From: a virus
Strand: one strand, 5' to 3'
Virus record (IMG/VR): IMGVR_UViG_3300034121_000350
Span: 1 to 38,424 of that record
Length of the DNA stretch: 38,424 bases
Position 1 is the first letter of the stretch. The number at the start of each line of letters is the position of its first letter. This document shows positions 2,330-37,436 of the stretch, piece after piece. The notes below the pieces were generated by a model that worked only from the letters and a program-made list of their open reading frames with translations, searched no databases and had not been told where the DNA came from. The translations under genes and the position numbers were made by a program.

Positions 2330-2330
2330 T

Positions 2331-2353
2331 GGCGCAGAGCAGTTCTCTGCGCC
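2331..2353 (-). terminator. Perfect 9-bp hairpin after the capsid gene
   Basis: GGCGCAGAG and CTCTGCGCC pair perfectly around a 5-base loop. The element lies downstream of the capsid stop and ends one base before ATG 2329. There is no T-tract, so it is not a standard intrinsic terminator. It may be a weak terminator, an RNase barrier protecting the capsid mRNA, or a block on initiation of the next gene. Confidence 0.45.
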
Positions 2354-2371
2354 GTTGCATGGTCGTTGCTA

Positions 2372-2455
2372 TCAATGCAGGATGATCCTGCCATCGTCTT
2401 GCAGCAGCACGAACTCATCGCTGAATCCGTCACCCTGAATCAGATAGCTGCCTAA
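2372..2455 (-). other. Candidate -1 frameshift extension of the capsid protein (27 codons)
   Basis: After the capsid stop TAG (2454-2452), the -1 frame stays open for 27 codons to TGA at 2374-2372. It contains no ATG, and the frame has a stop (TAA) about 10 codons upstream of the slip point, so it can only be entered from the capsid frame or by a rare start codon. The heptamer AAACCCT at 2461-2455 fits X XXY YYZ exactly in the capsid frame (ACA AAC CCT TAG). The encoded tail ends 'FVLLQDDGRIILH', close to 'YVTLQTGGRIALH' at the end of the tail protein at 10329-11549. T7 gene 10 is the known precedent for a capsid frameshift. C-containing slippery sites are usually weak, so this is a hypothesis. 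Confidence 0.45.
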
Positions 2456-3516: not shown

Positions 3517-3633
3517 AGCGAGTTGGGATTTAGGTTATCGAACAGATGCCTATTGGTGGGGCGGCATCCGGTAAGCCCAATCCCTCGCAATGTTCCTTGC
3601 CGCGAGGACGGCAGATACGGTAGTTCGTCAGCA

Positions 3634-3641
3634 CAAATGTA
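3634..3641 (-). promoter_or_regulatory. Possible Bacteroidetes -7 box upstream of the capsid gene
   Basis: TACATTTG matches TAnnTTTG and lies just after the terminator, 118 bases before the capsid start. The -33 position at 19-bp spacing reads CAT rather than TTG, so the match is only partial and the box could be chance. Confidence 0.3.
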
Positions 3642-3673
3642 AAAGAAAATCGCCCTGCATATGCAGAGCGATT
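3641..3673 (-). terminator. Intrinsic terminator between scaffold and capsid genes
   Basis: A 13-bp-armed hairpin with one mismatch (AATCGC-T-CTGCAT against ATGCAG-G-GCGATT, 3648-3673) is followed on the minus strand by TTTTCTTTT. It lies 25 bases after the scaffold stop. It would end scaffold transcripts and separate capsid expression from them. The 182-bp gap 3517-3698 holds this element, the possible -7 box and an untranslated leader; I see no gene in it. Confidence 0.7.
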
Positions 3674-3698
3674 CCCTTTACCCACACACACACTCTTA

Positions 3699-4532
3699 CT
3701 ATCGCTGACCAAACCTACGCGGTGCGCGAATCGCGCCTTGCGAAGATGGTGCTGCCTGTACGTTCTGCTGAATCGGCCGCTGCTGAAATGACTGCGCCAC
3801 AGGTTTACCTGCGTGAGGATTGTCCTGCAACAACTTGAACTCTTTCGCCATGTCCTTCACAGCATCCGACAGCGACATCAGTTCACCTGCCCACTTCGGG
3901 TGCTTGATGGGATTGCCGCTCGCGTCCACCATCTTCGGCTTCAACTCATCATCAAGGTCGATGCGGTATCGCTCCTTCGCAGCACTCACGAATCCTCGCT
4001 TCTTCAGATCATCAACGCCAGGATGAAACGCCACGCCCGACAAAGCTTGATCCCACTCACGGTCAATGATGCTCTTCCGTTTGGTGGTCTTCACTTCGGT
4101 GTCCAGTCCGTTGAATTTCTCCTGCCACTCAACGGCTTGTTGTTTGAAGGTCTCGCGCTCTTTCTCCGTAGACTTCAGCTTCGTCTGCCATTCCTTCACT
4201 ACGTCATCGGCTACTGCCGTCTCGGCCTTCTTCTTCCATTGGTCAATCTCGCCGACCTTCATGTTGATCGCAGGGATGAACTGGTCCAAGATGTCCAAAG
4301 GTTCCAAGCTATCGTCAACGTCTGCACCGATTGCGTTTCCAATCTTGCCCAGCTTGGTGCGGAACACGCGATTGAATTTGCCAAGAATCTTGCCGCTCAG
4401 TTCCTTGTCGTTCTGTGCCGTTTCGCGCGAAACGAATTTGCGCTCCACGGCAGTTTTGAAATCTTCCACGCTATCGAATTTCGACAGGTCGAAGTCCATG
4501 ACTTCCAACGCTTCTTCGGGTTTGATAGGCAT
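3699..4532 (-). CDS. Capsid scaffolding protein
   Basis: The 277-residue protein is charged, mostly helical and immediately precedes the capsid gene. Residues about 95-150 form a coiled coil rich in K, E and Q ('KAETAVADDVVKEWQTKLK'), as in phage scaffolds. The C-terminal 45 residues are Gln/Pro-rich and end in a basic tip ('RAPRRFGQR'), which could contact the capsid shell, as basic scaffold tails do in other phages. No protease gene was seen in the window, so the scaffold may leave intact. Confidence 0.7.
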   Translation of the reverse strand: MPIKPEEALEVMDFDLSKFDSVEDFKTAVERKFVSRETAQNDKELSGKILGKFNRVFRTKLGKIGNAIGADVDDSLEPLDILDQFIPAINMKVGEIDQWKKKAETAVADDVVKEWQTKLKSTEKERETFKQQAVEWQEKFNGLDTEVKTTKRKSIIDREWDQALSGVAFHPGVDDLKKRGFVSAAKERYRIDLDDELKPKMVDASGNPIKHPKWAGELMSLSDAVKDMAKEFKLLQDNPHAGKPVAQSFQQRPIQQNVQAAPSSQGAIRAPRRFGQR

Positions 4533-4536
4533 GGTC

Positions 4537-4770
4537 TTATTGTTTGGGTTTGCGTCCGCGACGCTTTACTTCCGGCACGTTGCTGATATGTTCGTCAATC
4601 TCTTCGACGAATGTCTCCATCATCTTCGGCAGACTAATCGGCTGCATCTCTTGCAGCACAACGCCACCTTGAATCCGAAACCCATTCGTTCGTGTCAGCC
4701 TTTCGGGGCAGGTCCGGATCAGCTTATCACCTGGTAGGCGATACCTGACCATCTTGTCTGTGGTACTCAT
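4537..4770 (-). CDS. Small head-region protein with AT-hook-like tail
   Basis: The 77-residue protein sits between the MuF-like and scaffold genes, 4 bases before the scaffold start. It begins with a short beta-like section ('RYRLPGDKLIRTCPERL') and ends with the basic 'KRRGRKPKQ', which resembles an AT-hook. Function is unknown; head location and a DNA-contacting tail are both possible. Confidence 0.6.
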   Translation of the reverse strand: MSTTDKMVRYRLPGDKLIRTCPERLTRTNGFRIQGGVVLQEMQPISLPKMMETFVEEIDEHISNVPEVKRRGRKPKQ

Positions 4771-4783
4771 GTACCAAAGGTAG

Positions 4784-5647
4784 TCAAGTGATCAGACCTT
4801 TATCACGCATTCGTTGCAGGTCTTGCGCAGCAACTTCGCTCTGCCTAACAGGAACGAGAACGTGTCGGCAGTTATATCCACCAAGGTAGCTGAAGATGGT
4901 GGTGCTGTTTGTTCCTGCCGTCTTGCCCTGCCAGTCTTCGCTCGCCCAGCTTGCAATCTCCTGCTTATGGTAGTAGTTGTTCGCCCGCTCACGGCAGAAC
5001 GGCCGGGTCGTTTTGATCGGTCTTCCTTGGTACAGAAAGAACACAGCACCTACCTGTTCTGACGCAACGTTGGTCGCTGTTCTTTCGTACACGCTGACCA
5101 GGTCATTGACCGTTGTTCTCGCGTTGCCAAGGATTGCGCCATCGCTCGTATCACCACCAGTTACGATTTGCGTGACTGCACTTACAAGGTCGCTGTATCT
5201 GCTGCCAGTTGCGATGTACGCACCCACTTCCTGCGCGATGGGATTCAGCAGGGTCTGCGAGAATGATTGTGCGTTCAGAAGGTACTCCGCACTGATCTGC
5301 TTGTACTGCGTTCGCAACGCCTTCATCAGTCCCTTGTCGATGCTTCCAATCTGTCCCACCCATTCGGTGGTATTCGCATCCAGCACATCGAAGGTCTTGA
5401 CGTATTCCTTCACCGCATCGCGCCATTGCGGATCAACGAAGTCCGATTCAATGTCGGACATCACCTGCGACAGCTTCGCGATGTTCGACTCGGTCGCTAC
5501 CAGGTTCCCGTCACGAATGTCAAGGTCCGCAAGGATGGTCCCGATGCGTGTCGCAGTTCGTCCCTGCAACGATGCCATTTCCTCAAGCAGCTTCAGCACT
5601 CCGGCATCTGCCTGTGCTTGGCCCTTCAGAAATTCAAGGAAGGTCAT
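4784..5647 (-). CDS. Minor head protein, SPP1 gp7 / MuF-like
   Basis: The 287-residue protein overlaps the portal stop and is helical for about 190 residues. The C-terminal 80 residues carry the conserved minor-head pattern: 'FLYQGRPIKTTRPFCRER', an 'EIASW' segment, then 'GGYNCRHVLVP' near residue 257. In SPP1 and Mu, proteins of this family bind the portal and enter the procapsid, where they help DNA exit or head assembly. The adjacent portal gene agrees with this. Confidence 0.8.
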   Translation of the reverse strand: MTFLEFLKGQAQADAGVLKLLEEMASLQGRTATRIGTILADLDIRDGNLVATESNIAKLSQVMSDIESDFVDPQWRDAVKEYVKTFDVLDANTTEWVGQIGSIDKGLMKALRTQYKQISAEYLLNAQSFSQTLLNPIAQEVGAYIATGSRYSDLVSAVTQIVTGGDTSDGAILGNARTTVNDLVSVYERTATNVASEQVGAVFFLYQGRPIKTTRPFCRERANNYYHKQEIASWASEDWQGKTAGTNSTTIFSYLGGYNCRHVLVPVRQSEVAAQDLQRMRDKGLIT

Positions 5648-7749
5648 ACAGCCCTGGTTTCCATCACACGCCGCAAGAAGTCGGCACGGTCAACGGTGAC
5701 TCCTTCGCGCTCAAAATTGGCAAGGCGCTCCTCTGCGCTGCGCTGCCTGTTGTTCAAGTCACCGATGCCGCGAAGGATGTCAATCACTCCTTCGATCATC
5801 TCATCGTCGTTGTCGTTCTCGCTCTCCGTTTCCTCAACGATGGTCTGTGCCATCATCTGAGCAGGACGAACGATAGGAACATTCATCGCGGTCATCTCAG
5901 ACGCGAACTGCTGCATCGCGTACTGGCGCATCGCATCAGACTTCGCGAAGATGTCCAGCGTTCTGAATGCAGGGTCTTGCATCAGCCTGTCGTACAGCCC
6001 CAATGCCTGTTGATGCAGCGCGACTTCCCATGCTTTCACTTCACCCTTTGCTTGCATCGCTGCGATCTGCTGCCAGTTCGCAGCCACCAATCGGTCTGCC
6101 TGTACGATAACAGACATCGCTTCCTGCATATACGGGTCGCTCGCGTACCGGATGTTGAAGTAGCCACGAAGTACTTCCTCAATCGCAGCAGGTGGCAGTC
6201 CTTTCGCCATCGCTTCGCCCAGCAAGTACAGGTAGTCAGCCTCAGTCCTTAGGTCGTACTGCGTTGCAGGAATGATGGTGTAGTAATCCTCCGCACTTCC
6301 GTAGCGTTCGATTGCAATCGTCTTCGCCACGAAGTCAATGGTCGCGAAGATCTGCGATGCAATCGGTGCGATGAAGTTCGCCCTTGCTTTCACGCCTACG
6401 CCGACCTGTGTCGCAGTCTCACTACTTCCTCCGCTGATACTGATGTCGCTGTGCAGGTGCAGCATCCTGCGACCTTCTGCCGTGTTCGACCTAATCTCTT
6501 CACGCAAGATGGTCGGTGTCGTAGCAGTTGGTTCAACGAAGGTCATCGCATCCTGCACCTTCACCTGCTGCCCGCCTTCCCGTGCGCTCTGCTCCTTCAC
6601 GAAGAGAACGCCAGCAGGACCAAGACGTGCAGCAACTCCGGTCCCTCTGCACGAAGGACATTTGCCCATCGCGATCAGACCTTCCTCGCCTTGGCTGTGC
6701 AGTCTTCCACCGATGCAATGCTGACCACCGCTGATGTCCTGGTAGTCGCACTCATGCCCAAGCATCACACGCATCGGATAGACGCTGTTGCTCTTGATCA
6801 TGAACAGGTTCATCGAATCCAGCAGCACCAGGTCGAAGAGATCCTTCGCGGGCAGGTAGTAGGATTCGAACATCACCGTGCCGTTCTCAATCACGGGCCT
6901 TCCCTTCAACGGCTCGGCAGGAACATAGCCACAGCCATGCGCGAAATGCAGACTGAATTGAAACGTCAGGTCGTGCGCTTTGCCGTACTGCTCAACACGC
7001 CAGCAGTTCATGTCATCCACCAGCCATAGCACCATCCCTTCGCGGACATCCTTCCCGGCCTTGCTGACGATGCTTCTTTCGTTGGTCACCAAGAGATACC
7101 ACCTGCCGTCTTCCTTGCCTACCACCTGTTCAACGGGGAAGTAGATCGGCTGCGGGTCAATCAATACGTCCGGGTCAATGACCATCGCCACTTCGCCATC
7201 GTCTGTCGTACCTTCCACAGCAGACACCTTCTTCGGCATCACACATACCACTCCCATCGGATCAAGCGTCTTGATCTTGGGAAGGATGTGCTTCATCCAG
7301 TCGGACAATGAATCGAACTGGTCAATCCGCGTGTTGATATAACTCTTGAACGCGAGCGGGTCGTTGTCCTCACCAGCAGCAGGTCCGAACTCAAATGTCC
7401 AGTTGCTCTGATGCAGCGCACCGATGATCATGTTCTCGAAGTCCACATAGTGCGGAATCGTCACCTGCTTGAAGTTCTTGCGAACGTATTCAAACTCCGC
7501 CTCTGTCTGATTCGGTGATCGGTCGTGAATCAGATGGGCAGGGAAGCTTCCGCTCTCAATGTGAACGCGCAGTTCGTCACGTTGCTTCACAGCCTTGTTG
7601 TAGCCGGGCCAAAACTCCGGCCACTTGCTTGCCCTTGCTGTGCTTACGCCGTTCCTGCCGTACTCGCGAAACGTGCCATCGACGTACCAGTTCCTCGCCT
7701 TCTTCGCGAACTCAGATACGACCAGGCTAATCTGCTCTTCCGTAAGCAT
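5644..7749 (-). CDS. Portal protein with a four-cysteine insertion
   Basis: The 701-residue protein precedes the MuF-like gene, and its size, helical C-terminal half and acidic tail fit a portal (the dodecameric DNA entry ring). Residues 1-110 contain aromatic, charged helices; a beta-rich clip/wing region spans about 180-300; the long helical crown/stem part follows about 400. Around residues 334-370 an insertion has four Cys (334, 345, 364, 367), the last two in 'CPSCRGTG', a zinc-knuckle pattern like DnaJ. That is not typical of portals. Start ATG 7749 overlaps a 29-codon frame. Confidence 0.75.
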   Translation of the reverse strand: MLTEEQISLVVSEFAKKARNWYVDGTFREYGRNGVSTARASKWPEFWPGYNKAVKQRDELRVHIESGSFPAHLIHDRSPNQTEAEFEYVRKNFKQVTIPHYVDFENMIIGALHQSNWTFEFGPAAGEDNDPLAFKSYINTRIDQFDSLSDWMKHILPKIKTLDPMGVVCVMPKKVSAVEGTTDDGEVAMVIDPDVLIDPQPIYFPVEQVVGKEDGRWYLLVTNERSIVSKAGKDVREGMVLWLVDDMNCWRVEQYGKAHDLTFQFSLHFAHGCGYVPAEPLKGRPVIENGTVMFESYYLPAKDLFDLVLLDSMNLFMIKSNSVYPMRVMLGHECDYQDISGGQHCIGGRLHSQGEEGLIAMGKCPSCRGTGVAARLGPAGVLFVKEQSAREGGQQVKVQDAMTFVEPTATTPTILREEIRSNTAEGRRMLHLHSDISISGGSSETATQVGVGVKARANFIAPIASQIFATIDFVAKTIAIERYGSAEDYYTIIPATQYDLRTEADYLYLLGEAMAKGLPPAAIEEVLRGYFNIRYASDPYMQEAMSVIVQADRLVAANWQQIAAMQAKGEVKAWEVALHQQALGLYDRLMQDPAFRTLDIFAKSDAMRQYAMQQFASEMTAMNVPIVRPAQMMAQTIVEETESENDNDDEMIEGVIDILRGIGDLNNRQRSAEERLANFEREGVTVDRADFLRRVMETRAV

Positions 7750-7838
7750 CAGGTCCGTTGCTCATGTACTGGCCCGAAGACCAATGCAAGGTTCATCCTG
7801 TACTTCGGCTTCGTCTTGGGTCTTCCGCAGCATTTCAT
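7749..7838 (-). CDS. Tiny basic Cys-Cys protein, 29 residues
   Basis: A short frame exactly fills the gap between the glycosyltransferase and portal genes: its ATG overlaps the upstream stop (ATGA) and its stop overlaps the portal start (TGATG). It begins MKCCGRPKTKPKYR and is strongly basic. The double coupling, the same pattern as elsewhere in this genome, is the main support. It may be a real protein or only a coupling leader. Confidence 0.45.
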   Translation of the reverse strand: MKCCGRPKTKPKYRMNLALVFGPVHEQRT

Positions 7839-8719
7839 TTTCTGTTCACGTATTTATCCTGCATGACGCTATGCAGGTTGTACCACATCTGTCTTCCGTG
7901 CTTACGATACAATCCACGAATGTATCGATCGTAAGATTCAAACCATGTCAGCTTGATCAGCCGATGTTGACGCAGGTCACCATACAGGCAGACGATAGGC
8001 AGATGCTTTGCAACATCGTGCAGTCCCTTGTATTCATGGCCCTGTCCGTAGAAAGACATTCGGTGATCGGGTAGTTCTATGTTAAGACATGACAGCGCAC
8101 TCGCCAAACGCAACTCGTCGGGAATGTCGTTGCCCCAAGGTTCCTTCAGATCGCTCTGCTGATAATTAACGTGCAACGCTAACTTGAATATCTGCGCTAC
8201 CTTCTTGGAAGGTTTGCGAATCCACATCCACGAACTCTGCACGCCGTAGTAGGTGGCATCGTTCTTCAGTTCACACACGCGTTTGATGGTAGCGTTCGTT
8301 GCCCACGGTGTGTATTCAATCGTATCGTGTTCGCCTCCCTTGCCTTTCACTTCAATGGCGAAGTCGTGCTTCGTCAATGCGTCAAGGTGTGGCGTGATGT
8401 CAGCAATCACCAAAGAGTCGGCATCCATGAACAGCCAATCGCCCTTGGGAAGAATCTCGTACACGTTGACCTTCAATGTCCCTGGCCCCTGCTTGTACCA
8501 TTCGGAATCCAACTGATGGACCTTCGTGAACAAAGCGTGATCTACACGCAGACCTTCACCTGCCCACAGATGGACAGGAACATTCGGTGAATGCTCACGC
8601 AGCGTCAGCGCAAGGTTCTCCGCAGCCTGTGCATATCCTCTGCGACCATACGCGAAAATGGCAATGGCAGGGGAAACTCCCCTGCCCTTTGCCTCTTCGT
8701 TGTTCACCGCGTCAATCAT
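7835..8719 (-). CDS. Glycosyltransferase with DxD motif inside the virion operon
   Basis: The 294-residue protein has a Rossmann-like start ('AIAIFAYGRRGYAQAAE', residues 18-34) and 'GDWLFMDADSLV' at 93-104, where MDAD is the metal/nucleotide-sugar DxD motif of GT-A enzymes. A later 'GQGHEYKGLHD' could form the acceptor side. It lies between the probable tail-tube and portal genes, so it may glycosylate a virion protein, though DNA or host surface sugars are also possible acceptors. The closest named family is uncertain (GT8/GT2-like). Confidence 0.65.
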   Translation of the reverse strand: MIDAVNNEEAKGRGVSPAIAIFAYGRRGYAQAAENLALTLREHSPNVPVHLWAGEGLRVDHALFTKVHQLDSEWYKQGPGTLKVNVYEILPKGDWLFMDADSLVIADITPHLDALTKHDFAIEVKGKGGEHDTIEYTPWATNATIKRVCELKNDATYYGVQSSWMWIRKPSKKVAQIFKLALHVNYQQSDLKEPWGNDIPDELRLASALSCLNIELPDHRMSFYGQGHEYKGLHDVAKHLPIVCLYGDLRQHRLIKLTWFESYDRYIRGLYRKHGRQMWYNLHSVMQDKYVNRK

Positions 8720-9270
8720 CCGAAGATGTTGCCTGGTGCATCGTATGGTACAGGGTCATCCTGCGAACGCCAAGCAATCGTTCCGGCGATCCGCTGTGCC
8801 TCGCTGTTGGTGTTTCCACCAGCGCGGTTAGCGGTCATCGTCACGTACTGGGTGACGTAGGACACACGATTCTCAGCGCACTCATAAAGCAAAGCACCAC
8901 CGAATCGCTGTGACTTGATGGTGTTGTACCACTCCACCACTTCTTTGCTGACCTTGGCATCCTCAAAGGACACGGTGCGGTCAGCGTTAATGGTGATGGT
9001 AGTACCACAGGCAGTAACAGGATCGATCGTGATGGGCGATGCGTCATCGAATCCGGCCTTGATGCCGCTGATGATGATCAGTTCGCCACTGTCGATCAGA
9101 GCCTGTACTTCCTCCGCGTCACTTGGGTCAACAAGTTCAGCACCGCATGACAGCAGTCCGATGGAACTGATGCCGCTCAGGTAGTACTCTTTCGTATCGC
9201 AGCCGCTCTGCGCCGGATACGCCTCGTAGTCGTAACAGTAGTAGGGTTTGGGGCAGTCGTTAATAGCCAT
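8716..9270 (-). CDS. Probable major tail tube protein
   Basis: The 184-residue protein is beta-rich with a central helix ('SKEVVEWYNTIKS', about 106-118) and a C-terminal strand region ('VTQYVTMTANRAGG' near 135). Size and the strand-helix-strand layout resemble siphovirus tail tube proteins. It has an unusually Cys-rich N-terminus. It sits after the fibre genes and before portal, away from the tail chaperones. A baseplate or decoration protein is an alternative. Confidence 0.45.
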   Translation of the reverse strand: MAINDCPKPYYCYDYEAYPAQSGCDTKEYYLSGISSIGLLSCGAELVDPSDAEEVQALIDSGELIIISGIKAGFDDASPITIDPVTACGTTITINADRTVSFEDAKVSKEVVEWYNTIKSQRFGGALLYECAENRVSYVTQYVTMTANRAGGNTNSEAQRIAGTIAWRSQDDPVPYDAPGNIFG

Positions 9271-17063: not shown

Positions 17064-17434
17064 TGGTCGGTGTTGGTGTAGTAGCTGGTCCGTGGCGTGA
17101 TGATTCCTGCGAACGATACCACCACCTGGCTGTAGTCCTCCGTGGCTAACTCAATGTCGCAGCCCTCCATCACATACGGTGTGAACGGCACAGGAACGCC
17201 AAGGTTCAGCAACTGGACCGCGTAGCTGTGGAACTCATTGATGCCAAGGTCGGAAGCGAGAATGTAGTGTTCATCCCCGATTGCTTCAGCGTCAATGTGA
17301 ATCACTCGCCCCGTTGCAAGGTCAGTGAACTGCACGACCAGGTTCACGCATTCGGACATTCCGATGTAGATGATCGCGTCATCTTCCGCGCATAGACGCA
17401 GACTGTACGCTAATGCTTGGTCGTTGCAGAGCAT
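17045..17434 (-). CDS. Beta-rich protein of unknown function, tail region
   Basis: The 129-residue protein overlaps the terminase end by 56 bases if ATG 17434 is used; ATG 17359 would avoid this. Most of it is strand ('CVNLVVQFTDLATGRVIHI', 'YSQVVVSFAGIIT'). It lies just before the tail chaperones, so it may be structural. No family recognised. Confidence 0.55.
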   Translation of the reverse strand: MLCNDQALAYSLRLCAEDDAIIYIGMSECVNLVVQFTDLATGRVIHIDAEAIGDEHYILASDLGINEFHSYAVQLLNLGVPVPFTPYVMEGCDIELATEDYSQVVVSFAGIITPRTSYYTNTDQWLTIY

Positions 17435-18758
17435 TGGTCTTACGGTGTGTTTGAATCCACTTGTAAAGGTACGTGTTGATCACATAGCGCATCACGTCCA
17501 ACTTGTCCGCCCGCTGGTTTGCTTTGCTCCTGTCGCTCTTAATGATGTGCAGGTCAGCGTCTACTTCGACAGACTCCAGGTCATAGATCAGACCTGTGCA
17601 GCTTGGGTCCACTCTGAAGTCCGCATGGTGATGGTGAACGTATGCCACCTGCTCCCTGCTCTCCTTGTGCGTTGGGTTCGCTGGCAGCTTCAGTTGTGAT
17701 TCCCTCGCTCTGATTGCCGTCATGAAATCATCCCACATCGACGCAGTAGACTTCATCTGTATTCGACGTGCCGTCCCCGTATGGTCACCCGTGTATTGAT
17801 GGAACATGATGTTCGGTGCAATCGCTGTGATGCGCTCCACCATCTCTTCGATGCTGCCACCTTTGATGTCGATCTCGTGCGAGATACCGAACGTCTTCCC
17901 CTGCTCCTGACAGATCAGAGCGCAGAACGGGTCCACGTTGAAGTCGATGCCGATGATTACAGGAAGTCTGTTGTCAAGGACGAACGGGCGAACGTGCTTC
18001 CTCCTGTCGAATGCGAACGCGAACGGACGCTCGGCCTTGGGTCGTGCTGACCAATCGCCATCCAGCAGACGCGCCCTGTCGTAGTGGTCAAGGTGCATCA
18101 ACGTGCTGATGTATTGGTCTCGTAACGCTTCGTCGGGATTGTCTCTGATGGTAAACAGCACCCTTCCCCTGTGCTTCGGTAGCGTAACAAGGTCCGCGTT
18201 GTGGTCCAGCACGAACTGGTCTTTGATCCACGATTCACCTGGGTTGCCCGTGTACAGGATTTCGGGCGTGATATTGTACCTGCTGTGACCGTATCGCAGT
18301 CGTGATAGCAATACCTGACAGGCGCGGGCATCCACTTCGGGTGCTTCATCCACGAACGCATCGGTGTATTCCGTCGATCCGAATCTGTTGTAGTCCGGGT
18401 CGCTCGGCATATGCCTCATGTATCTGAAGTGCTGCTCGCTACCAGGCCACTCCGCGCTGCCGTTCTTCCAGTAGATCGAATGCTCCTGCCCGTTGTAGGT
18501 GTAGTGTTCAATCGACCTGTAGCCTAACTCCGAAAGGATCTGAAAGTAGGTCTTCATCGTACTATCACGCATCGCCGTGAAGTCCTCACGCCCGATGAAC
18601 CCACGCGTACCTGGGTAGGCGGTCCTTCGATAGATCTGCCGGAGACATCCAAGGTAACTCTTGCCGCCACCTGCTCCGCCACCTGCGAAGACTTCGATTA
18701 TCTCAGGTCTGTCGAGCAGCTTCCAAGCTTGCTTCTGCTTCTGCGATAGCGCGATCAT
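17379..18758 (-). CDS. terL: Terminase large subunit
   Basis: The 459-residue packaging motor has an ATPase with Walker A 'GGGAGGGKS' at 26-34 and Walker B 'AFVDEA' at 134-139. The coupling segment 'ILYTGNPGE' is near 168-176. The nuclease domain has 'IIGIDFNVDP' at 268-277, whose first Asp (272) is the usual metal ligand of the RNase H fold. The start overlaps the small subunit stop (ATGA). Ends of the packaged genome were not seen, so pac or cos mode stays open; circular permutation in the assembly would favour headful packaging. Confidence 0.93.
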   Translation of the reverse strand: MIALSQKQKQAWKLLDRPEIIEVFAGGGAGGGKSYLGCLRQIYRRTAYPGTRGFIGREDFTAMRDSTMKTYFQILSELGYRSIEHYTYNGQEHSIYWKNGSAEWPGSEQHFRYMRHMPSDPDYNRFGSTEYTDAFVDEAPEVDARACQVLLSRLRYGHSRYNITPEILYTGNPGESWIKDQFVLDHNADLVTLPKHRGRVLFTIRDNPDEALRDQYISTLMHLDHYDRARLLDGDWSARPKAERPFAFAFDRRKHVRPFVLDNRLPVIIGIDFNVDPFCALICQEQGKTFGISHEIDIKGGSIEEMVERITAIAPNIMFHQYTGDHTGTARRIQMKSTASMWDDFMTAIRARESQLKLPANPTHKESREQVAYVHHHHADFRVDPSCTGLIYDLESVEVDADLHIIKSDRSKANQRADKLDVMRYVINTYLYKWIQTHRKTNALQRPSISVQSASMRGR

Positions 18759-19063
18759 TCATCCTTGGGCATGATAATCGTCGGGATGGGAACGGGATTG
18801 CCGCCGCTGGTGAAGTCCATCTGCTGCTTCGCTTTGCCGTATGCTCGGTCCAGCAATATCTCAGCAGCCCGGATGTTGCCAGCCGCTGCCATTGCTCTCA
18901 GCTTGCGAAGGATTGCGTCTGCTGCCGTGATGCCATCCTTCTCCTCCCCAAGTACATCGGCCAGCAGCTTGTCGATTTCCGGCAGCTTCTTGGGCCTTCC
19001 TTTGGGGTTGCCGGACTTCCCTTTTGGGAACTTGTGGGGTTCTATTCCTGCCGTCTTACTCAC
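18755..19063 (-). CDS. Terminase small subunit-like (DUF5681-type)
   Basis: The 102-residue protein begins with a basic, Gly/Pro-rich segment 'FPKGKSGNPKGRPKK' (residues 13-27), a DUF5681-type signature, followed by helices ('AADAILRKLRAMAAAGNIRAA'-like, about 47-67, and an 'AEILLDRAYGKAKQ' end). Similar proteins lie directly upstream of large terminases in many phages, and the next gene here is TerL with a 4-base overlap. Confidence 0.75.
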   Translation of the reverse strand: MSKTAGIEPHKFPKGKSGNPKGRPKKLPEIDKLLADVLGEEKDGITAADAILRKLRAMAAAGNIRAAEILLDRAYGKAKQQMDFTSGGNPVPIPTIIMPKDE

Positions 19064-19091
19064 GCTGTTCTACCGCTGTTTAAGCGTCTTT

Positions 19092-19805
19092 TTACAGGTT
19101 TAGCTGTATTGTGTATGCGCCCGCCTCTCTCTTTGCCATTCGTACCATGCCGGGGTGGTCCTTCCGAAGCATTGCGATCGCCTCTTCTTCCATCTTCATC
19201 GTTCGGTAGTCCTTGCATCCCCCATTGGTCCCCCAATGCTCATTTTCCCAATGCATATATCGAACGCCTAACAATCCGCCGCGCTCTTTGATATGCCGCA
19301 GGCAAATATCGTAGTCCTCTTTGACAAGGTACTCCTCATTGAACCGGTAGCTTCCGTCGTTCACGATGCCCATGCACGATGCTGTTGCGTAGGTTCTGAA
19401 TAGGAACGGCTTGTATGGGTATGTGGAGCGTCGTGCGCTTTCACTTTTGAGGCCCCATATCTTGTAGTCCATCTGATCGCACAGGTCAAACCATTTTGCG
19501 AACTCTTGCTCCCATACCTTTCCGTCCGTGACCTTCACGTATTTGGCCCGTGTTCCAAGCTGTATGTAGCCTGCCGACTTTACATCATCGTCGATGAATA
19601 CCACCCTGCTGTCATTTGCATTTTCCAGGATCCAATTTCTTGTCGTCGTTATACCCTTGACAGAGTTAGGCACACCGACCACATTAGGACAGTAGTTCCT
19701 ATACTGATGCACCTCACTTTCAGGCACGAACATCTTGGCCCCTTTCAGGATCTTGTCAGACTTAGTCGAACCCGCTCGGCCCTTACTCGGTATCGCGATC
19801 AGCAT
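19092..19805 (-). CDS. Glycosyltransferase of the TET-associated (TAGT) type
   Basis: The 237-residue protein starts 'MLIAIPSKGRAGST', then 'TTTRNWILENA' (53-63) and 'VVFIDDDVKS' (68-77), where IDDD is the DxD site of a GT-A fold. A late acidic 'KEDYD' (162-166) fits the base or acceptor region. The S.GRA start and spacing recall phage glycosyltransferases described beside TET/JBP oxygenases. No TET gene is seen here. It overlaps the ParB-like gene by 23 bases, and a compact C5-methyltransferase-like gene lies 2 kb upstream. DNA base glycosylation is plausible but not shown. Confidence 0.65.
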   Translation of the reverse strand: MLIAIPSKGRAGSTKSDKILKGAKMFVPESEVHQYRNYCPNVVGVPNSVKGITTTRNWILENANDSRVVFIDDDVKSAGYIQLGTRAKYVKVTDGKVWEQEFAKWFDLCDQMDYKIWGLKSESARRSTYPYKPFLFRTYATASCMGIVNDGSYRFNEEYLVKEDYDICLRHIKERGGLLGVRYMHWENEHWGTNGGCKDYRTMKMEEEAIAMLRKDHPGMVRMAKREAGAYTIQLNL

Positions 19806-20415
19806 TTTCCTTCATTCTTTCTTTCATCCCCTGAAATGTCAGCACCCTTTCCAGCCCCAATGCATCGAAAGCACTCCCCTCCTTGTACCCCCCTCGTCTC
19901 ACCATTTTTAGTCCCAGCGTCTGTTTCATCTCTTCCCATTCCTCGCTGTTAGGTTCCGCCATTATTAACACGTATTCCATTTGTGGGCGAACTTGCAATG
20001 AAGCGTCCTCGAACTTCAATGGCACATCTTGGTCATCTTCACCCGATGCTGGTAGGTCCAGCCCCCACGCCTCCAACTTGCCAGCGTCCCATTCGTTCGC
20101 CAGTTGGTCCCAGTCCCATTCACCGAAGCCCACGTTGTCCTTGATGATGAACTCACGCCGCTGCTCTTCGGTCCATTCGTCGGCCAGGATGATTGGCACT
20201 TCCTTCAGCTTCAGATCTTGACAGGCCCGCAGCCTCATGTTGCCACCGATTACCATGTACTTGCCATCGGTGTCGGTCACGGCCACGATAGGCCGCTTGT
20301 TCAGCATATCCGGAAACGATTCAATGCTCGCCTTCAGCTTCAAGAACTTCTCGTCTCGAAGGATTCTCGGGTTTGACGGGTTCGGTTTCAGCTTCCCTGT
20401 TGGTACTTTCATCAC
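19783..20415 (-). CDS. ParB/Srx-fold nuclease-like protein
   Basis: The 210-residue protein has the ParB-like core: 'NPSNPR' near 12-17, 'KASIESF' at 28-34, 'PIVAV' at 42-46 and 'VIGGNMRLRA' at 55-64, in which GG..R..A is the conserved NTP-binding motif. In phages such proteins often accompany DNA methylases and base-modifying enzymes and may act as nucleases or CTP/ATP-using DNA binders. The C-terminal half is acidic and unrecognised. Its neighbours are two modification-type genes. Confidence 0.8.
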   Translation of the reverse strand: MMKVPTGKLKPNPSNPRILRDEKFLKLKASIESFPDMLNKRPIVAVTDTDGKYMVIGGNMRLRACQDLKLKEVPIILADEWTEEQRREFIIKDNVGFGEWDWDQLANEWDAGKLEAWGLDLPASGEDDQDVPLKFEDASLQVRPQMEYVLIMAEPNSEEWEEMKQTLGLKMVRRGGYKEGSAFDALGLERVLTFQGMKERMKENADRDTE

Positions 20416-20852
20416 TTCCGAAGTATTGATACTTTCTCAATCGCCCATTCGACTCCTTCGTCTCCTCCCCATGCGTCCCACATCAGACCACCACATCCCT
20501 GCTCGTATGGTACTTCGCTGTTCTGCTTGTGTCGGACGAACGCTGCCATGCGTTGAATGGTCTGAAGACTGATCGCCTCCCTGTTAGCAAGTTGGTTCGC
20601 CCTGGCCCACCCTACTGGTGTCCCGCAGTCCCTTGGGTTCCCGCTCTGCTCTCTGAACTTCAATGCCCTCTTGGCGTTGTTGCTTGCTGCCTGTGGATAG
20701 TCATCGAAGGTCTCATCAGATGCGTAGACGTTGTCCGCACAGATAGCGTACCGCTGGTTCTCGGTGTACTCATCTACCATTGTCGCGTCAGCCATGCAGC
20801 GTTTCATGAACGCATCGGGCGTTTCGTTTCGCTCACGCTTGGGTATCGGCAT
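20412..20852 (-). CDS. Conserved phage protein with NAKRAL/CGTPVGW motifs
   Basis: The 146-residue protein has a conserved block: 'YPQAASNNAKRALKFREQ' (residues 53-70), 'CGTPVGWARANQLANRE' (76-92), 'TIQRMAAFVRHK' (97-108) and 'CGGLMWDAWGGD' (119-130). I recognise this arrangement from uncharacterised phage proteins near packaging or head genes, sometimes joined to protease domains. The function is unknown. It lies in the modification island, 3 bases into the next ParB-like gene. Confidence 0.65.
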   Translation of the reverse strand: MPIPKRERNETPDAFMKRCMADATMVDEYTENQRYAICADNVYASDETFDDYPQAASNNAKRALKFREQSGNPRDCGTPVGWARANQLANREAISLQTIQRMAAFVRHKQNSEVPYEQGCGGLMWDAWGGDEGVEWAIEKVSILRK

Positions 20853-21000
20853 CGCTCTTCTTGGGTTTGCTCATCTCCGCCATTCCTGCCGCAATTAGCA
20901 GCAAGATGCCAGCCGATGCGATGAACGGTAGTGCGGGCATCAAGACGATCACGCCTATTACAGCGATGATAATAGCCAGCGTTGCTGTGACCTTCCTCAT
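20833..21000 (-). CDS. Small membrane protein, 55 residues
   Basis: The protein has two hydrophobic helices (about residues 5-22 and 26-45) and a charged end ('MSKPKKSDADTQA'). Start ATG 21000 overlaps the stop of the preceding gene as ATGA; an in-frame ATG at 21012 is the alternative. It may be a membrane anchor or an accessory to the sugar-related genes. No family recognised. Confidence 0.55.
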   Translation of the reverse strand: MRKVTATLAIIIAVIGVIVLMPALPFIASAGILLLIAAGMAEMSKPKKSDADTQA

Positions 21001-21728
21001 AATTTTTTCCATGTCTGATGCTGTCCGTGTAACTGCCAAACTCCGCTCGTATGCCCACGATAGAGGACAGGCCATATGCCCGTGTTCCCTGTCGTGATCA
21101 ACAGCTTCTTAGCCTGGCCCAACGCCCACAACATTGCGTTGAACTTAATAGCGAAGGTACTACGATTCACGGGCATCACGTACCTGTCATGGTTCTTGTG
21201 GATCCTCGGCAGTTCGTCGGTGTAGCCCGTGTTCGGGTGTGACTTAAGGAATGCTTCAAGGAACTCTTGCTCATCCGTCTGAACGAAGTAGGGTCCGCCT
21301 ATCGCTGATGCTGCTTCGATCACCGTGCTGTAGTCAACAGGTGTGATCTCCTTCGCCTTGTCGTTGCCCCTGTAGATGACGCAGGTCGCATCGCCGATGT
21401 TGTTCCTGTACTCTGCTGCCTGTGCGAGAACTTCCTTGGACGGTCGGCAGACATCCATCGCGATACGTGAAAGGTTTGGCAGGTCAATATCGTCGTACCA
21501 TCCGTACTGCCAGCCGTGGTCGTAGTCCGTTGGGTTGATGGTCGGCTGCTTGTAGTCACCAAGAAGGAGCGTATCAATCCGATCTGATGGGTTGACCTTG
21601 TAGATGTCAAACTGCCCTCTGCTGTCGATCTCAGTAGGCCAGTAGCCGTGATACCTTGCGTAGGTGTGTGCATCGTGCAGCCTGACCGATAGGCATGACG
21701 TCAGTCCGGTCCCTGTTGTTACTATCAT
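20997..21728 (-). CDS. Glycosyltransferase-like, fucosyltransferase-type C-terminal half
   Basis: The 243-residue protein has 'CVIYRGNDKAKEITPVDY', matching the RRGD-like donor site layout of GT-B fucosyltransferases, then 'GGPYFVQTDEQEFLEAF', the 'TDE' segment of the same families. An extended tail ends in 'GNTGIWPVLYRGH'. I chose ATG 21728 because it gives the ATGA overlap with the small Cys-rich gene; a longer frame to 21815 lies inside that gene. Acceptor unknown. Confidence 0.5.
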   Translation of the reverse strand: MIVTTGTGLTSCLSVRLHDAHTYARYHGYWPTEIDSRGQFDIYKVNPSDRIDTLLLGDYKQPTINPTDYDHGWQYGWYDDIDLPNLSRIAMDVCRPSKEVLAQAAEYRNNIGDATCVIYRGNDKAKEITPVDYSTVIEAASAIGGPYFVQTDEQEFLEAFLKSHPNTGYTDELPRIHKNHDRYVMPVNRSTFAIKFNAMLWALGQAKKLLITTGNTGIWPVLYRGHTSGVWQLHGQHQTWKKL

Positions 21729-21916
21729 CGCGGTGGCTTTGCGTACATAATTCCATCTGCTTCCATGTAGATGTACGGCTGCCCATCTTCGGTCTCGCTG
21801 TGCGGTCCTGGGCAATCGCAGCAGCCGTCAAACTCCGCGCACTGCGGACACGGCTGATCGCCATCTTCCCCAAACTCAAAAGAGAAGACCACTCGCTTCC
21901 ATTCGTTGTGCTTCAT
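21725..21916 (-). CDS. Small Cys-rich zinc-ribbon-like protein
   Basis: The 63-residue protein contains 'CPQCAEFDGCCDCPGPH' (residues 23-39), four to five Cys and a His that could hold a zinc ion. It overlaps the 3' end of the methyltransferase-like gene by 41 bases in another frame. It may be an adaptor for the neighbouring enzyme; function unknown. Confidence 0.55.
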   Translation of the reverse strand: MKHNEWKRVVFSFEFGEDGDQPCPQCAEFDGCCDCPGPHSETEDGQPYIYMEADGIMYAKPPR

Positions 21917-22511
21917 CAGTCCCCCATTGTTGTGCCATTGCGTTGGCGATTCCTTGAAAGGTCTTGTTGCGTACTATCGCCCTCTGTGCAGGAGGAAGGT
22001 TCAACGCATCGTTGTACCACTTCGGAAGACTCTTGCCGCTCTTGGTAACATGGCGTTCTCCCTTGTCTACCACATTCGTATGCCTAAGTAATGGTAGACC
22101 TTTCAGCCATAGACAGGTAGTCTTAGTGAACGGGTCTCCGTGTTGGTATGGCTGTATTATCTGGTCCGGCTTGCGATAGATTGAAGACATGATGCCAACC
22201 GGATTCTCAATCGCCACGCGTGGGCATTTGAGTTTCGTGAACAGCATGAAGAAGTCGATGCCCTCCTGTTGCCTTCCGTCTGCCCGCTTCTTCGCGAAGT
22301 GCTTGGCCCCGCTGACTGCAAGGTGTGTGCATGGAGGAAACGCAATGACGGCATCCCAAGGTTCGTCCAATAGGTCTCTCACGTCACCTTGGTAGTGTGG
22401 TCCACCATTGTCCGAAGGAAGTAGGTCACACGATAGTGCATCGTGTCCTAATGCGCAAAACGCATCGCGCACCGTTCCAGAATGCTCGCAAGCTAAAAGT
22501 ACTTTCATCAT
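21876..22511 (-). CDS. Compact C5-cytosine methyltransferase-like protein
   Basis: The 211-residue protein resembles a C5-cytosine DNA methyltransferase shorn of its target-recognition domain. Visible are a motif I-like 'LLACEHSGTVRDAF' (5-18), 'GHDALSCDL' (22-30), 'AFPPCTHLAVSG' (57-68) with the motif IV PPC catalytic Cys at 61, 'IENP' (101-104, motif VI) and 'GIANAMAQQW' (187-196, motif X). Full C5 enzymes exceed 300 residues, so specificity must come from elsewhere or be relaxed. It starts at two adjacent ATG codons, overlapping the upstream stop. Confidence 0.7.
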   Translation of the reverse strand: MMKVLLACEHSGTVRDAFCALGHDALSCDLLPSDNGGPHYQGDVRDLLDEPWDAVIAFPPCTHLAVSGAKHFAKKRADGRQQEGIDFFMLFTKLKCPRVAIENPVGIMSSIYRKPDQIIQPYQHGDPFTKTTCLWLKGLPLLRHTNVVDKGERHVTKSGKSLPKWYNDALNLPPAQRAIVRNKTFQGIANAMAQQWGTDEAQRMEASGLLF

Positions 22512-23086
22512 TTGATGCCGAACTTCTTCTTGATGGGTTCGTGCTTATAGCGGTAGATGTACAGCACCTGGTCAACGTAGACTTCCTTCTTCAGCAGCCC
22601 TGATGCTTTCAGCCTGTCGCTGTAGTTGTGATCCTCCGCGAAGCGCATATCCTGGTAGCCGATCTTCAACGCGTGTTCACGCAGGACAGGGTTCTTGTGG
22701 TAAATCGTCCGAACGTAGTCGTAGCCTTCGACCTTCTCGCCCCATCGCTCCCATCGATTCGATGCGCTCGCGTACTTCCTCCGCCCCATCCCGTTCACTT
22801 CGACCTTGAATCCGATGCAGTCGGGTGTTGTCAAGGTAGCTTGCAGAATCTCTTCGACGTAGTTGTCCGGCACCCAATCATCGTCATCAATGAAGACAAC
22901 GTAGTCACCGCTTGCCGCTTCGATCAGTCGCTGTCTTTTGGCTCCGATGCTCATCACCTGCTTGTCGCTGGCATCGTAGATGATCTCCACAGGTAGTCCA
23001 GCACTCTGCCGCCATAGGTGCGCCATCAGCTTCCCGAACAGATGCTCTCTGCCAGGTATCGTCGCGATGCAGATGGATAGCTTCAT
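22508..23086 (-). CDS. Family 2 glycosyltransferase
   Basis: The 192-residue protein has the GT2 start 'LSICIATIPGREHLFGKL' (3-20), 'GAKRQRLIEAASGDYVVFI' (48-66) and 'DDDDW' (67-71), the nucleotide-sugar DxD site. 'RFAEDHNYSDRLK' near 150 is the family's ED acceptor-base motif. I chose ATG 23086 for its ATGA overlap; the extra upstream frame lies in the FkbM gene. The length is near the minimum for a GT-A domain. Confidence 0.8.
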   Translation of the reverse strand: MKLSICIATIPGREHLFGKLMAHLWRQSAGLPVEIIYDASDKQVMSIGAKRQRLIEAASGDYVVFIDDDDWVPDNYVEEILQATLTTPDCIGFKVEVNGMGRRKYASASNRWERWGEKVEGYDYVRTIYHKNPVLREHALKIGYQDMRFAEDHNYSDRLKASGLLKKEVYVDQVLYIYRYKHEPIKKKFGIK

Positions 23087-23682
23087 CGAATCATGATCAA
23101 GTTCTGATGGTTCCTTGCGTACTTCTTCATGCCATACGATCTGCAATACTCCAGCATCTCGACTTCGTTGGCGTGTTCGTGTTCGATGATCAACATCCTG
23201 CAACCGATTTGAAGAAGGTCGATCTGCTTGAGGATGTTCATGTCCACTCCCTCTGCGTCGATGCTGATCAGTTCCGCCCGTTCGATGTTCACTTCCTTGA
23301 GCAGTTGCGCGAACGTGATGACACGAACGTCAACGCTCTCAAAGGCGCAGCCCCACTTGTGCGTGTGTTCGATTTCTAAGGTAGACAGAAGAGCAGTATC
23401 ACCTACGTTTAGATGCTCGCCCGAATCATACAGCGTCTGCGTTCCTGCCTTGTCGTTGATTGCTGCTTGAACGCATTGCACATCCAGGCCATTCATGTTC
23501 GTCACCAGCTTGGCGAACGCCGATGGTGATGGTTCTACCATGACTCCCTTCCAGCCACGCTGCGCTGCCGCATACGTGTTCGATAATGTGATACCATCGT
23601 TCGCACCGATGTCGATGAACGTTCCGACCTTGGTTCCGAAGTAGTACTTCACCAATGCCTCTTCGTTGTTCTGCGATCTCAT
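23083..23682 (-). CDS. FkbM-family SAM-dependent methyltransferase
   Basis: The 199-residue protein has motif I 'TFIDIGANDGI' (21-31), the acidic end of strand beta2 'GVMVEPSP' (46-53) and 'ISIDAEGVDMNIL' (139-151), the FkbM signature. These enzymes methylate hydroxyl or sugar positions on polysaccharides and small molecules. It lies between two glycosyltransferases, with 4-base overlaps, so it probably modifies a sugar that those enzymes add. Confidence 0.85.
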   Translation of the reverse strand: MRSQNNEEALVKYYFGTKVGTFIDIGANDGITLSNTYAAAQRGWKGVMVEPSPSAFAKLVTNMNGLDVQCVQAAINDKAGTQTLYDSGEHLNVGDTALLSTLEIEHTHKWGCAFESVDVRVITFAQLLKEVNIERAELISIDAEGVDMNILKQIDLLQIGCRMLIIEHEHANEVEMLEYCRSYGMKKYARNHQNLIMIR

Positions 23683-24326
23683 GTGAATCCCTTTCGTTTG
23701 CGTTGCTCGTAGACTCTCCGGTCGGCGTGATAGAACTTGTTGTTCCGTCTGTACAACTCATCGCCCCGCTGGTTGCCTCCCCAGTCAGGTGACTCGTTCT
23801 TGATGATGCATTCCTGCACGAAGGTCAGCTTTCCGTCTCGAAGTCCTACGTCAGTCGCTTCGTTGTCGCACCACAGACTGGTGTAGGCCGGATGATAAAT
23901 GTAGCCAAGGTGGTCGTATCTCTTTCGTCCTAAACATTGAATCGTGTTGATCCTGTCCTGACGGCCGTCATACAGCCATAACTCCCCATCGGTATCGGGA
24001 TGGTGCTTCGCGAACTGCTCTCGAATCTTGGTATCATAGCCTTGTACCTGCGGGATCATGTCATCGCTGACCAGCAGAAGGATGTCCCATTCGCTCTGCG
24101 CCTTGTCAATATCGGCGTTGATAGCTTGCACCTTGCTCCTGTTCCTTCCGTAGTGAATCGATGTCATGTGACCGTACTGCGCCATCGTGCTGTCATCGAT
24201 GTCGCAGCTGATCACTACTTCAGCCAGGTCAGGTCGGTCCAGCTTGAACACGTATTCGTTCAAGGTCTCCACGAACTGCTCCGGCCTTGCTCGTGTTGGG
24301 TACTTCAGCAGTAGTCGGTAGTTCAT
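23679..24326 (-). CDS. Glycosyltransferase (GT-A-like)
   Basis: The 215-residue protein starts MNYRLLLKYPTRARPEQF and has 'WDILLLVSDDM' (80-90), where SDDM is the DxD-type site, followed by 'GYIYHPAYTSLWCDNEATDVG', an acceptor-side pattern. ATG 24326 overlaps the nuclease stop by 4 bases. This looks like a sugar-nucleotide-utilising phage enzyme. Its product may be taken up by the adjacent FkbM enzyme. Confidence 0.7.
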   Translation of the reverse strand: MNYRLLLKYPTRARPEQFVETLNEYVFKLDRPDLAEVVISCDIDDSTMAQYGHMTSIHYGRNRSKVQAINADIDKAQSEWDILLLVSDDMIPQVQGYDTKIREQFAKHHPDTDGELWLYDGRQDRINTIQCLGRKRYDHLGYIYHPAYTSLWCDNEATDVGLRDGKLTFVQECIIKNESPDWGGNQRGDELYRRNNKFYHADRRVYEQRKRKGFT

Positions 24327-35552: not shown

Positions 35553-35927
35553 TTATGGTATTACGCGAAGCACCTTCACTCCGCTGTCCACCACCAAGTT
35601 ACGAACCGCCCGCGATACAATGATGCATCCATGCGATGCGCTGTTGTCTTTCTTGGCGTTGTCCCCGTGAATCAGAAACGCCGAACGCCCGTAGGTATTC
35701 GTTCCAAGCACAGCCTTCAGAGGGATTGCATACGGTCCCACGTTCTTCGAATTGTACGGACTGCCCATCACCCAAAAGCCCTGCGGAATAGGACCGACGG
35801 CCTTGACGTGCTGCATCTCGCAGTTGTTCAGACCTGCTCCGTTGCCGCTGTATCCCACAGCTACGACACGTCCTGTCGGGTCCGTTAGCTTACCCGTTCC
35901 CTGGCTATACGTCCACTCGTTCGTCAT
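35553..35927 (-). CDS. L,D-transpeptidase-fold endolysin (DUF2778-like)
   Basis: The 124-residue protein has 'GYSGNGAGLN' (25-34), 'GPIPQGFWVMGSP' (45-57), 'GRSAFLIHGD' (80-89) and 'SASHGCIIVS' (96-105), the HxD and SxHGCI motifs of L,D-transpeptidase/carboxypeptidase folds, with catalytic Cys101. It sits between holin and u-spanin and should cut or exchange peptidoglycan peptides. I chose ATG 35927 over an upstream GTG at 35945. Confidence 0.8.
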   Translation of the reverse strand: MTNEWTYSQGTGKLTDPTGRVVAVGYSGNGAGLNNCEMQHVKAVGPIPQGFWVMGSPYNSKNVGPYAIPLKAVLGTNTYGRSAFLIHGDNAKKDNSASHGCIIVSRAVRNLVVDSGVKVLRVIP

Positions 35928-36369
35928 CGGTAGCGATGTATCCACCTAATTTCTTTTCAAGCCACTTGATCAGCTTGCTGCCTGTCAGCACTCCGTACTT
36001 TCTCGCAACGTCAAGCAGAGCAGTCAGACCAACGAACGAAGCAACAGCGATAAACAAAGGTGTCTCAGGTATCCACGTCACGTTGGGTATCATCGTATCC
36101 ACTATCGACGCGACGAACAGCATCGCTGCCGTCAGCGCGAACTTCTTCAAGGGTCCAAACGTGAAATGCTTGACGTTGAATCTGATGCCCTTCCGCATCG
36201 CAACGTTCGCGCCCATGAACGCGTCAATGATCAGCAAGATGAAGTAGAGAAAGATGCTCATGCCGATGACCTGCAAGTTGCCCCACAGGACCACCAATGC
36301 ACTCAGCAGAATCTTCGCACCTACTTCAGCAGGTGTTCCTCCGATCACATCACGAATCATGTCCTTCAT
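35905..36369 (-). CDS. Holin
   Basis: The 154-residue protein has about four hydrophobic spans (residues 18-33, 34-52, 78-95, 103-122), with 'LLIIDAFMGANVAMRKG' between the second and third, as in the toxin-secretion/phage-lysis holin family. The C-terminus is charged. Its position before the lysin gene fits. It would form the lesion that releases the lysin. Confidence 0.75.
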   Translation of the reverse strand: MKDMIRDVIGGTPAEVGAKILLSALVVLWGNLQVIGMSIFLYFILLIIDAFMGANVAMRKGIRFNVKHFTFGPLKKFALTAAMLFVASIVDTMIPNVTWIPETPLFIAVASFVGLTALLDVARKYGVLTGSKLIKWLEKKLGGYIATDDERVDV

Positions 36370-36749: not shown

Positions 36750-37436
36750 TTAGAACTTAAGCCACTCAATCGTTGATCCAGCCAGGACTGTGGCAGCGGA
36801 TGCGTCGGTCGTGTTTTGCGCCCATTGCAATTCAAGGTTGCCCGCATTGGCTCCGTTCTCGACGGTGAAGTTGAGCTGGCCGCGAATGATGAAGGTGGCC
36901 CCTGCTGTCTGCGCCAAGTCACTGGTATCATAAGCACTCGCTATCCTGTTGGATGGAGTACCGGCTGAGTTGAAGAAGACCTGCGCTAAGAACACTCTCG
37001 TCGGGCTTGCTGGTCCTGTTATTCGACTCTTGAAGTCTCCGCCTGATGATGCCGATACGTAGAGGGTGATGGTGCCGCTGTAGTTGGTGTTGGCTGCCAT
37101 TGGCAACACGAGATAAGGATCAGCGGCCAACGTGTTGTTAGTCCTCGCTGTCGACGTGGGCTTGGTCAAGATGTTCCAGCCATCCGACGCCAGTCTGTAG
37201 CGTGCGTCGGCATCGGTGATGGTTGGCACATCGGTCGCTCCTGTCCCTGTGTTGACCAGCGCAGCCGTCCCTTGCGCATAGGCCAGGGCTGTCCATGCCT
37301 GCGTGCCATTGCCTATCTTCATGCGCTTCGTATCGCTCTCAATACCTATCTCGCCAGCAAGCAGGGTCGGGTTGTTAGATGTCCAGTTGGCAGCCGTGTC
37401 GCGCCTCAGTTGTACCGTTGCCGTTATAGTGCTCAT
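36750..37436 (-). CDS. Tail fibre with Mtd/hyaluronidase-type N-terminal domain
   Basis: The 228-residue protein starts 'ATVQLRRDTAANWTSNNPTL' (6-25) then 'GEIGIESDTKRMKIGNGTQA' (28-47), the virion-attachment motif found at the start of many fibres and phage hyaluronidases. The rest is beta-rich, ending in a jelly-roll-like domain ('FIIRGQLNFTVENG'). ATG 37436 overlaps the stop of the join-spanning fibre fusion. It probably binds a host surface structure. Confidence 0.8.
   Translation of the reverse strand: MSTITATVQLRRDTAANWTSNNPTLLAGEIGIESDTKRMKIGNGTQAWTALAYAQGTAALVNTGTGATDVPTITDADARYRLASDGWNILTKPTSTARTNNTLAADPYLVLPMAANTNYSGTITLYVSASSGGDFKSRITGPASPTRVFLAQVFFNSAGTPSNRIASAYDTSDLAQTAGATFIIRGQLNFTVENGANAGNLELQWAQNTTDASAATVLAGSTIEWLKF

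Follow-up and report, generated by a model that had tools for sequence, protein, structure and literature searches.

An exchangeable phage cassette pairing ParB with putative DNA-modifying enzymes lies beside a separate set of sugar genes

The TET/JBP-associated glycosyltransferases (TAGT, PF20691) take part in DNA hypermodification, and the TAGT of phage T6, a beta-glucosyl-HMC-alpha-glucosyltransferase (phrog_842), is a DNA-sugar glucosyltransferase (PMC13216743, PMC13390438) that requires glucosyl-hmC as its acceptor (PMC13216743). TAGTs described so far act on an existing sugar or hydroxymethyl group, although solitary TAGTs have been flagged as potentially novel transferases (PMC13216743). 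In a separate line of work, ParB domains have been found next to, or fused with, phage DNA-modifying enzymes such as DNA methyltransferases, and ParBc has been found next to CmoX, but the role of these domains is described as unknown (PMC12783734), and proteins combining a GNAT with an ABC ATPase have been predicted to acylate DNA (PMC7824862). Here, we examined a phage gene island in which a TAGT and a ParB-like protein lie next to several other sugar and methyl genes. We find that the island consists of two unrelated parts side by side, a four-gene sugar-building set and an exchangeable cassette of ParB plus a DNA-modification-type enzyme, which here carries a glycosyltransferase without the oxidase after which it is named. 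This suggests that phages use ParB as a plug-in adaptor for many DNA-modifying enzymes.

The sequence analysed, referred to as the window, is a whole IMG/VR virus record of 38,424 bases (IMGVR_UViG_3300034121_000350), with all main genes on the minus strand. The parts of interest are the following:
17379..18758 (-), terminase large subunit, anchor of the ParB slot
18755..19063 (-), DUF5681 protein, between the slot and the terminase
19025..20056 (-), exchangeable segment, consisting of the ParB tail and the enzyme gene
19092..19805 (-), TAGT-family (PF20691) GT-A glycosyltransferase, the enzyme of the ParB slot
19783..20415 (-), ParB-like protein, with a core of about 120 aa (20415-20056) and an enzyme-specific C-terminal tail (20055-19783)
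20412..20852 (-), 146-aa protein with a phrog_2859 domain
20997..21728 (-), protein with a predicted fucosyltransferase fold (GT-B, FUT8/NodZ-like), last gene of the glycan cassette
21729..22511 (-), inserted block, with a compact C5-methyltransferase-like gene (21876-22511) and a Cys-rich 63-aa ORF (21725-21916)
22508..23086 (-; the upper coordinate is approximate), GT2 glycosyltransferase of the glycan cassette
23083..23682 (-), FkbM methyltransferase of the glycan cassette
23679..24326 (-), glycosyltransferase with a predicted GT-A fold, first gene of the glycan cassette

The first-pass annotation had described these sugar and methyl genes as one overlapping operon lacking a visible oxidase, and in this respect its observation is confirmed: all the named genes are present, joined by short start/stop overlaps. 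In Pfam searches, TAGT (PF20691, 1e-17, 65.2 bits against a cut-off of 27.5), ParB_N (PF02195, 6e-8, 33 bits against 26.3), GT2 (PF00535, 7e-10) and FkbM (PF05050, 2e-20, 73.8 bits against 22.7) all pass their cut-offs. The TAGT also matches phrog_842 (7e-22), and its GT-A acidic motif, DDD at residues 72-74, is invariant in alignments of 16 and 10 sequences. DUF5681 was identified by PF18932 (5e-17), and the terminase by PF04466 and by tblastn to Bacteroides and Flavobacterium phage terminases. No ParA-type domain, the expected partner of a partition ParB, was found among the Pfam hits of the window proteins scanned. The compact C5-methyltransferase-like protein matches phrog_757 (2e-65) but gives no Pfam hit up to an E value of 1, and a profile-profile comparison with PF00145 aligns the PPC and EN motifs only weakly (E 0.03); within its own alignment of 15 sequences, P60, C61, E102 and N103 are invariant and P59 is nearly so. 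The product of the 23679 gene has no Pfam hit, but matches phrog_14945 (6e-15), and its AlphaFold model (pLDDT 88) is a GT-A fold, with WrtF and PcManGT as Foldseek matches. Sequence searches of the PDB with the TAGT and the C5-methyltransferase-like protein returned nothing, and a scan of genome contigs for TAGT gave only two metagenome-assembled contigs and no named host.

The same annotation reasoned that sugar attachment to C5-modified bases would require a TET-type oxidase or hydroxymethylated nucleotides, and proposed that the product of 20412 or 20997 might supply this step, or else that the sugars go to proteins or to the host surface. This interpretation is partly supported. It is right that no oxidase is recognisable and that at least some of the sugar genes probably do not act on DNA, but it is wrong in treating the island as one pathway, the glycan cassette, the C5-methyltransferase-like gene and the ParB–TAGT pair having separate histories, and in its choice of oxidase candidates. 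The 20997 product (243 aa from its likely start at 21728), which was counted as an unknown gene, is itself the fucosyltransferase-like protein. It has no Pfam or PHROG family, but its AlphaFold model (pLDDT 87, pTM 0.86) matches FUT8 (Z 14.7) and NodZ (Z 14.0), with the best non-fucosyltransferase row at Z 7.1, the best viral Foldseek match is a phage fucosyltransferase, and a Y119-RGNDKA motif is invariant in its alignment. The 20412 product contains a single histidine in 146 aa and cannot hold the HxD...H triad of a 2-oxoglutarate oxygenase; it is related to part of a larger phage protein family, phrog_2859. A motif scan for HxD...H over the entire window gave only scattered hits in identified or structural genes.

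To establish whether the absence of an oxidase is particular to this island, we searched the window and its relatives with profiles of the candidate families. Tet_JBP gives no match in the window or in 39 TAGT records, whereas the same search detects TET in five sibling loci (retrieved loci are numbered with the prefix L), namely L182, L187 and L230, in which ParB is followed by TAGT and then TET, and L214 and L220, in which ParB is followed by FkbM and then TET, and in none of the other 44 records of that search. A phrog_6059 ("queuine tRNA-ribosyltransferase") match in L182, L187 and L214, which could be read as a DpdA-type enzyme, is Tet_JBP according to Pfam. Likewise, 2OG-FeII_Oxy_3, PhyH and thymidylate synthase (PF00303, for which the control search was positive in 9 genomes) give no match in the window or in the long TAGT records, although PF20691 is detected in all 23 virus records tested. 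The window and most relatives are contigs of unproven completeness, and a remote oxidase could lack Pfam similarity, but the cultured Microbacterium phage Pulchra (53,312 bp, annotated as complete) carries HTH–ParB–TAGT–UDP-glucose dehydrogenase and likewise has no Tet_JBP, 2OG-FeII_Oxy_3, PhyH or thymidylate synthase hit. The TAGT relatives found by tblastn include 56 Microbacterium phage records, and one locus, L234, has a UDP-galactopyranose mutase after TAGT, which hints at tailored sugar donors. TET-less ParB–TAGT is thus common, and the lack of an oxidase is a property of most ParB–TAGT loci rather than of this island.

We next asked whether the genes of the island share a history, by retrieving close relatives with the fucosyltransferase-like, FkbM and GT genes. 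In L136, L137, L139, L143, L145 and L164, the order GT–FkbM–GT2–fucosyltransferase is constant, L135 shows the same four genes, L142 shows the last three, and the more distant L163 and L165 keep FkbM–GT2–fucosyltransferase. This cassette keeps its order with every type of ParB partner and also without ParB. In the relatives, GT2 and the fucosyltransferase-like gene overlap by ATGA, whereas in the window 783 bp holding the C5-methyltransferase-like gene and the 63-aa Cys-rich ORF sit exactly between them (blastn gap 22507/21728), an arrangement seen only in this phage. None of the 80 loci retrieved with the C5-methyltransferase-like protein shows a TAGT hit, and no locus retrieved with TAGT shows that protein, so that it constitutes an independent insertion.

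TAGT, in contrast, belongs with ParB: 48 of 54 TAGT loci have ParB directly upstream, and the remaining six are cut by the contig end at the TAGT. In the closest relatives of the window, however, the gene after ParB is instead a C5-methylase (L136), a divergent TAGT (L137), Mom (L139, L142), a P-loop/ABC + GNAT protein (L141, L163) or a fused N6/N4-methylase (L143). An independent search anchored on ParB gave 80 loci, comprising 29 with TAGT, 22 with fused N6/N4-methylases plus L212, 14 with Mom, 4 with C5-methylases, 4 with ABC-GNAT, 1 with a DpdA-like gene followed by QueC and, further on, QueE (L196), 2 with FkbM (followed by TET), 1 with a gene that matches no known family convincingly (L211), and 2 with a short ParB. 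Direct phmmer hits alone place a modification-type enzyme in the slot, or in a domain fused to ParB, in 68 of the 80 loci, against 7 of 640 other ORFs of 100 aa or more, and with assignments by Pfam, PHROG or close identity the count is about 77 (78 if L211 is included, which is the value used for a Fisher test, p about 1e-93). A tree of the ParB core (127 columns, many forks unresolved) requires at least 33 changes of enzyme, and the ParBs nearest to that of the window, up to 93% identical, carry C5-methylase, Mom and ABC-GNAT.

In blastn comparisons with seven relatives (L136, L137, L139, L141, L142, L143 and L163), DNA homology to the window stops at 20056 (20047-20056), which is ParB codon 120, and resumes at about 19080-19011, near or inside DUF5681. 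The exchanged unit is therefore the ParB tail plus the enzyme, and the tails match the enzymes. At ParB-core identity of 95% or more, 49 of 53 same-enzyme pairs but 0 of 19 different-enzyme pairs have similar tails, and at core identity below 40% the corresponding counts are 724 of 977 and 0 of 567. Single-linkage tail families are almost pure by enzyme: that of the window has 67 members, all TAGT, one family joins the TAGT–TET and FkbM–TET loci, as if the tail followed TET, and one C5 family also holds the DpdA locus. No homology between tail families was detectable by hhalign, so a common origin of the tails is neither shown nor excluded.

Taken together, we consider it reasonably likely that the island comprises two functional modules and a recent insertion. 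In this view, ParB–TAGT is one version of an exchangeable phage DNA-modification cassette anchored just upstream of the terminase, the conserved ParB core engages phage DNA, and its enzyme-matched tail brings the partner enzyme, here TAGT, to that DNA, where TAGT adds a sugar. While the gene arrangement, the swapping and its borders, the match between tail and enzyme, and the absence of a recognisable oxidase follow directly from the sequence comparisons, the activity on DNA and the role of ParB as recruiter are inferred, from the DNA-base-directed enzymes that otherwise occupy the slot, from the activity of T6 TAGT on modified DNA, and from a tail family exclusive to TAGT, and a benefit in restriction evasion is likewise only inferred; the analysis identifies neither the sugar nor an acceptor group. 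The inference is weaker for the four-gene cassette, which, being independent of the slot type, may build a short, possibly fucosylated, O-methylated glycan on a different target, most likely a virion protein or a host surface glycan; GDP-fucose as a donor would be by analogy with NodZ, and sugar methylation by analogy with FkbM sugar methylases such as NoeI. The compact C5-methyltransferase-like protein would be a separate, inserted DNA methylase and not the first step of a TET-type pathway.

Two alternatives remain possible, although we hold each only tentatively. First, TAGT could depend on a hydroxylated or otherwise pre-modified base made by the host, by a gene missing from these contigs, or by an oxygenase too remote to recognise. 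The three sibling loci with TET directly after TAGT and the requirement of T6 TAGT for glucosyl-hmC speak for this, whereas the dozens of TET-less ParB–TAGT loci, including Pulchra, in which the oxygenase and thymidylate synthase searches find nothing, speak against it. Second, tail and enzyme could travel together merely through physical linkage, without any recruiting role for the tail, since the tail lies between the core and the enzyme gene, and a single recombination at the core, a natural recombination site, would carry both. Linkage could explain part of the pattern, but the persistence of recognisable tails within an enzyme class when the cores are under 40% identical, and the tail family kept with TET although the middle gene is TAGT or FkbM (few loci), argue for function without proving it. 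One could also speculate that phage ParB-like proteins are interchangeable adaptors loading many unrelated DNA-modification enzymes onto phage DNA, and that in TET-less loci such as this one TAGT glycosylates an otherwise unmodified base in one step, without oxidase or hydroxymethylase; such a reaction would be new, and we regard this combined reading as unlikely. That TAGT here modifies a virion protein or the host surface, with ParB only a neighbour, is also unlikely: although the lack of a visible hydroxyl-making step speaks for it, TAGT occupies the position otherwise held by enzymes acting on DNA bases, beside ParB in all loci not cut by a contig end, and has its own ParB tail family. Least likely is a joint pathway in which the C5-methyltransferase-like protein makes 5mC, an unrecognised enzyme oxidises it, and TAGT, the other glycosyltransferases and FkbM build a methylated glycan on DNA, since, although the genes are adjacent and FkbM can sit next to TET in ParB slots (L214, L220), the C5-methyltransferase-like gene is an insertion unique to this phage with no TAGT co-occurrence in the loci retrieved, the glycan cassette occurs with Mom, methylase or ABC-GNAT slots or no ParB, and no oxidase is found.

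The swap pattern links two puzzles, the role of ParB beside modification enzymes and the solitary TAGTs, and gives a rule, that the ParB tail predicts the partner enzyme, which is testable in cultured Microbacterium and Leptospira phages. It also turns the ParB slot into a place to look for new DNA-modification enzymes, L211 being one candidate. In the literature examined, from which key older papers were absent so that priority is unproven, we found neither the swap of tail with enzyme nor the placing of TET-less TAGT in this slot.

Compared with TET-dependent C5 hypermodification, the window shares the TAGT family with its GT-A DDD motif, and some siblings have TET right after TAGT, but TET is absent here and in most relatives, TAGT is paired with ParB, and the nearby C5-methyltransferase-like gene is an unrelated insertion. 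The T6 enzyme belongs to the same profile families, but acts after hydroxymethylation and alpha-glucosylation, and neither step is found here. The NodZ/FUT8 fucosyltransferases share the predicted fold of the 20997 product at about 11% identity. The predicted GNAT + ABC ATPase DNA acylation enzymes fill the same ParB slot in L141 and L163, but are not in the window. Finally, as in the ParB-domain methyltransferase pairs and fusions and in ParBc next to CmoX, ParB_N lies beside or is fused to a DNA-modification-type enzyme, but here the partner is TAGT, and the ParB tail is shown to change with the partner.

In three of the ParB-anchored sibling loci, the PHROG family phrog_6059, which carries the name 'queuine tRNA-ribosyltransferase', scores on genes that Pfam identifies as Tet_JBP above cut-off (L182, positions 1991-2782; L187, positions 7310-8125; and L214, positions 2535-3344), and the PHROG label looks wrong for these genes. 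A protein of 310 aa occupies the ParB slot of another such locus (L211, positions 1629-2561), and showed no convincing Pfam or PHROG family. It looks GT-B-like to the eye, and we consider the protein a candidate for a new DNA-modification enzyme.

The domain of the phrog_2859 type encoded at positions 20412-20852 of the window recurs just upstream of ParB in several phages, being found in this position also in the loci L196, L203, L209 and L240. Outside the island, the window encodes a protein with a Major tropism determinant N-terminal domain (PF18454) at positions 36750-37436, as well as a protein with a Tlde1/L,D-transpeptidase-type domain at positions 35553-35945. The latter is unusual as a phage gene, and is a possible lysis or peptidoglycan enzyme.

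In one ParB-TAGT locus (L234, positions 1266-3258), the pair is followed by a UDP-galactopyranose mutase (PF03275, 6e-67), which points to a possible galactofuranose donor for TAGT. In the cultured Microbacterium phage Pulchra (L246, positions 3070-5475), the order is HTH-ParB-TAGT-UDP-glucose dehydrogenase, and these genes lie near the end of the linear genome, whose start carries the terminase genes. In L196 (positions 6001-8917), ParB is followed by a DpdA/TGT-like gene, a QueC-like gene and, after a small ORF, a QueE-like gene, which on sequence similarity alone we read as deazaguanine DNA modification in the ParB slot. Finally, in Leptospira phage LE3 (L249, positions 2959-4580), ParB is followed, upstream of the terminase, by a gene of 1,101 bp annotated as GNAT acetyltransferase, a cultured example of what is likely the ABC-GNAT version of the slot.
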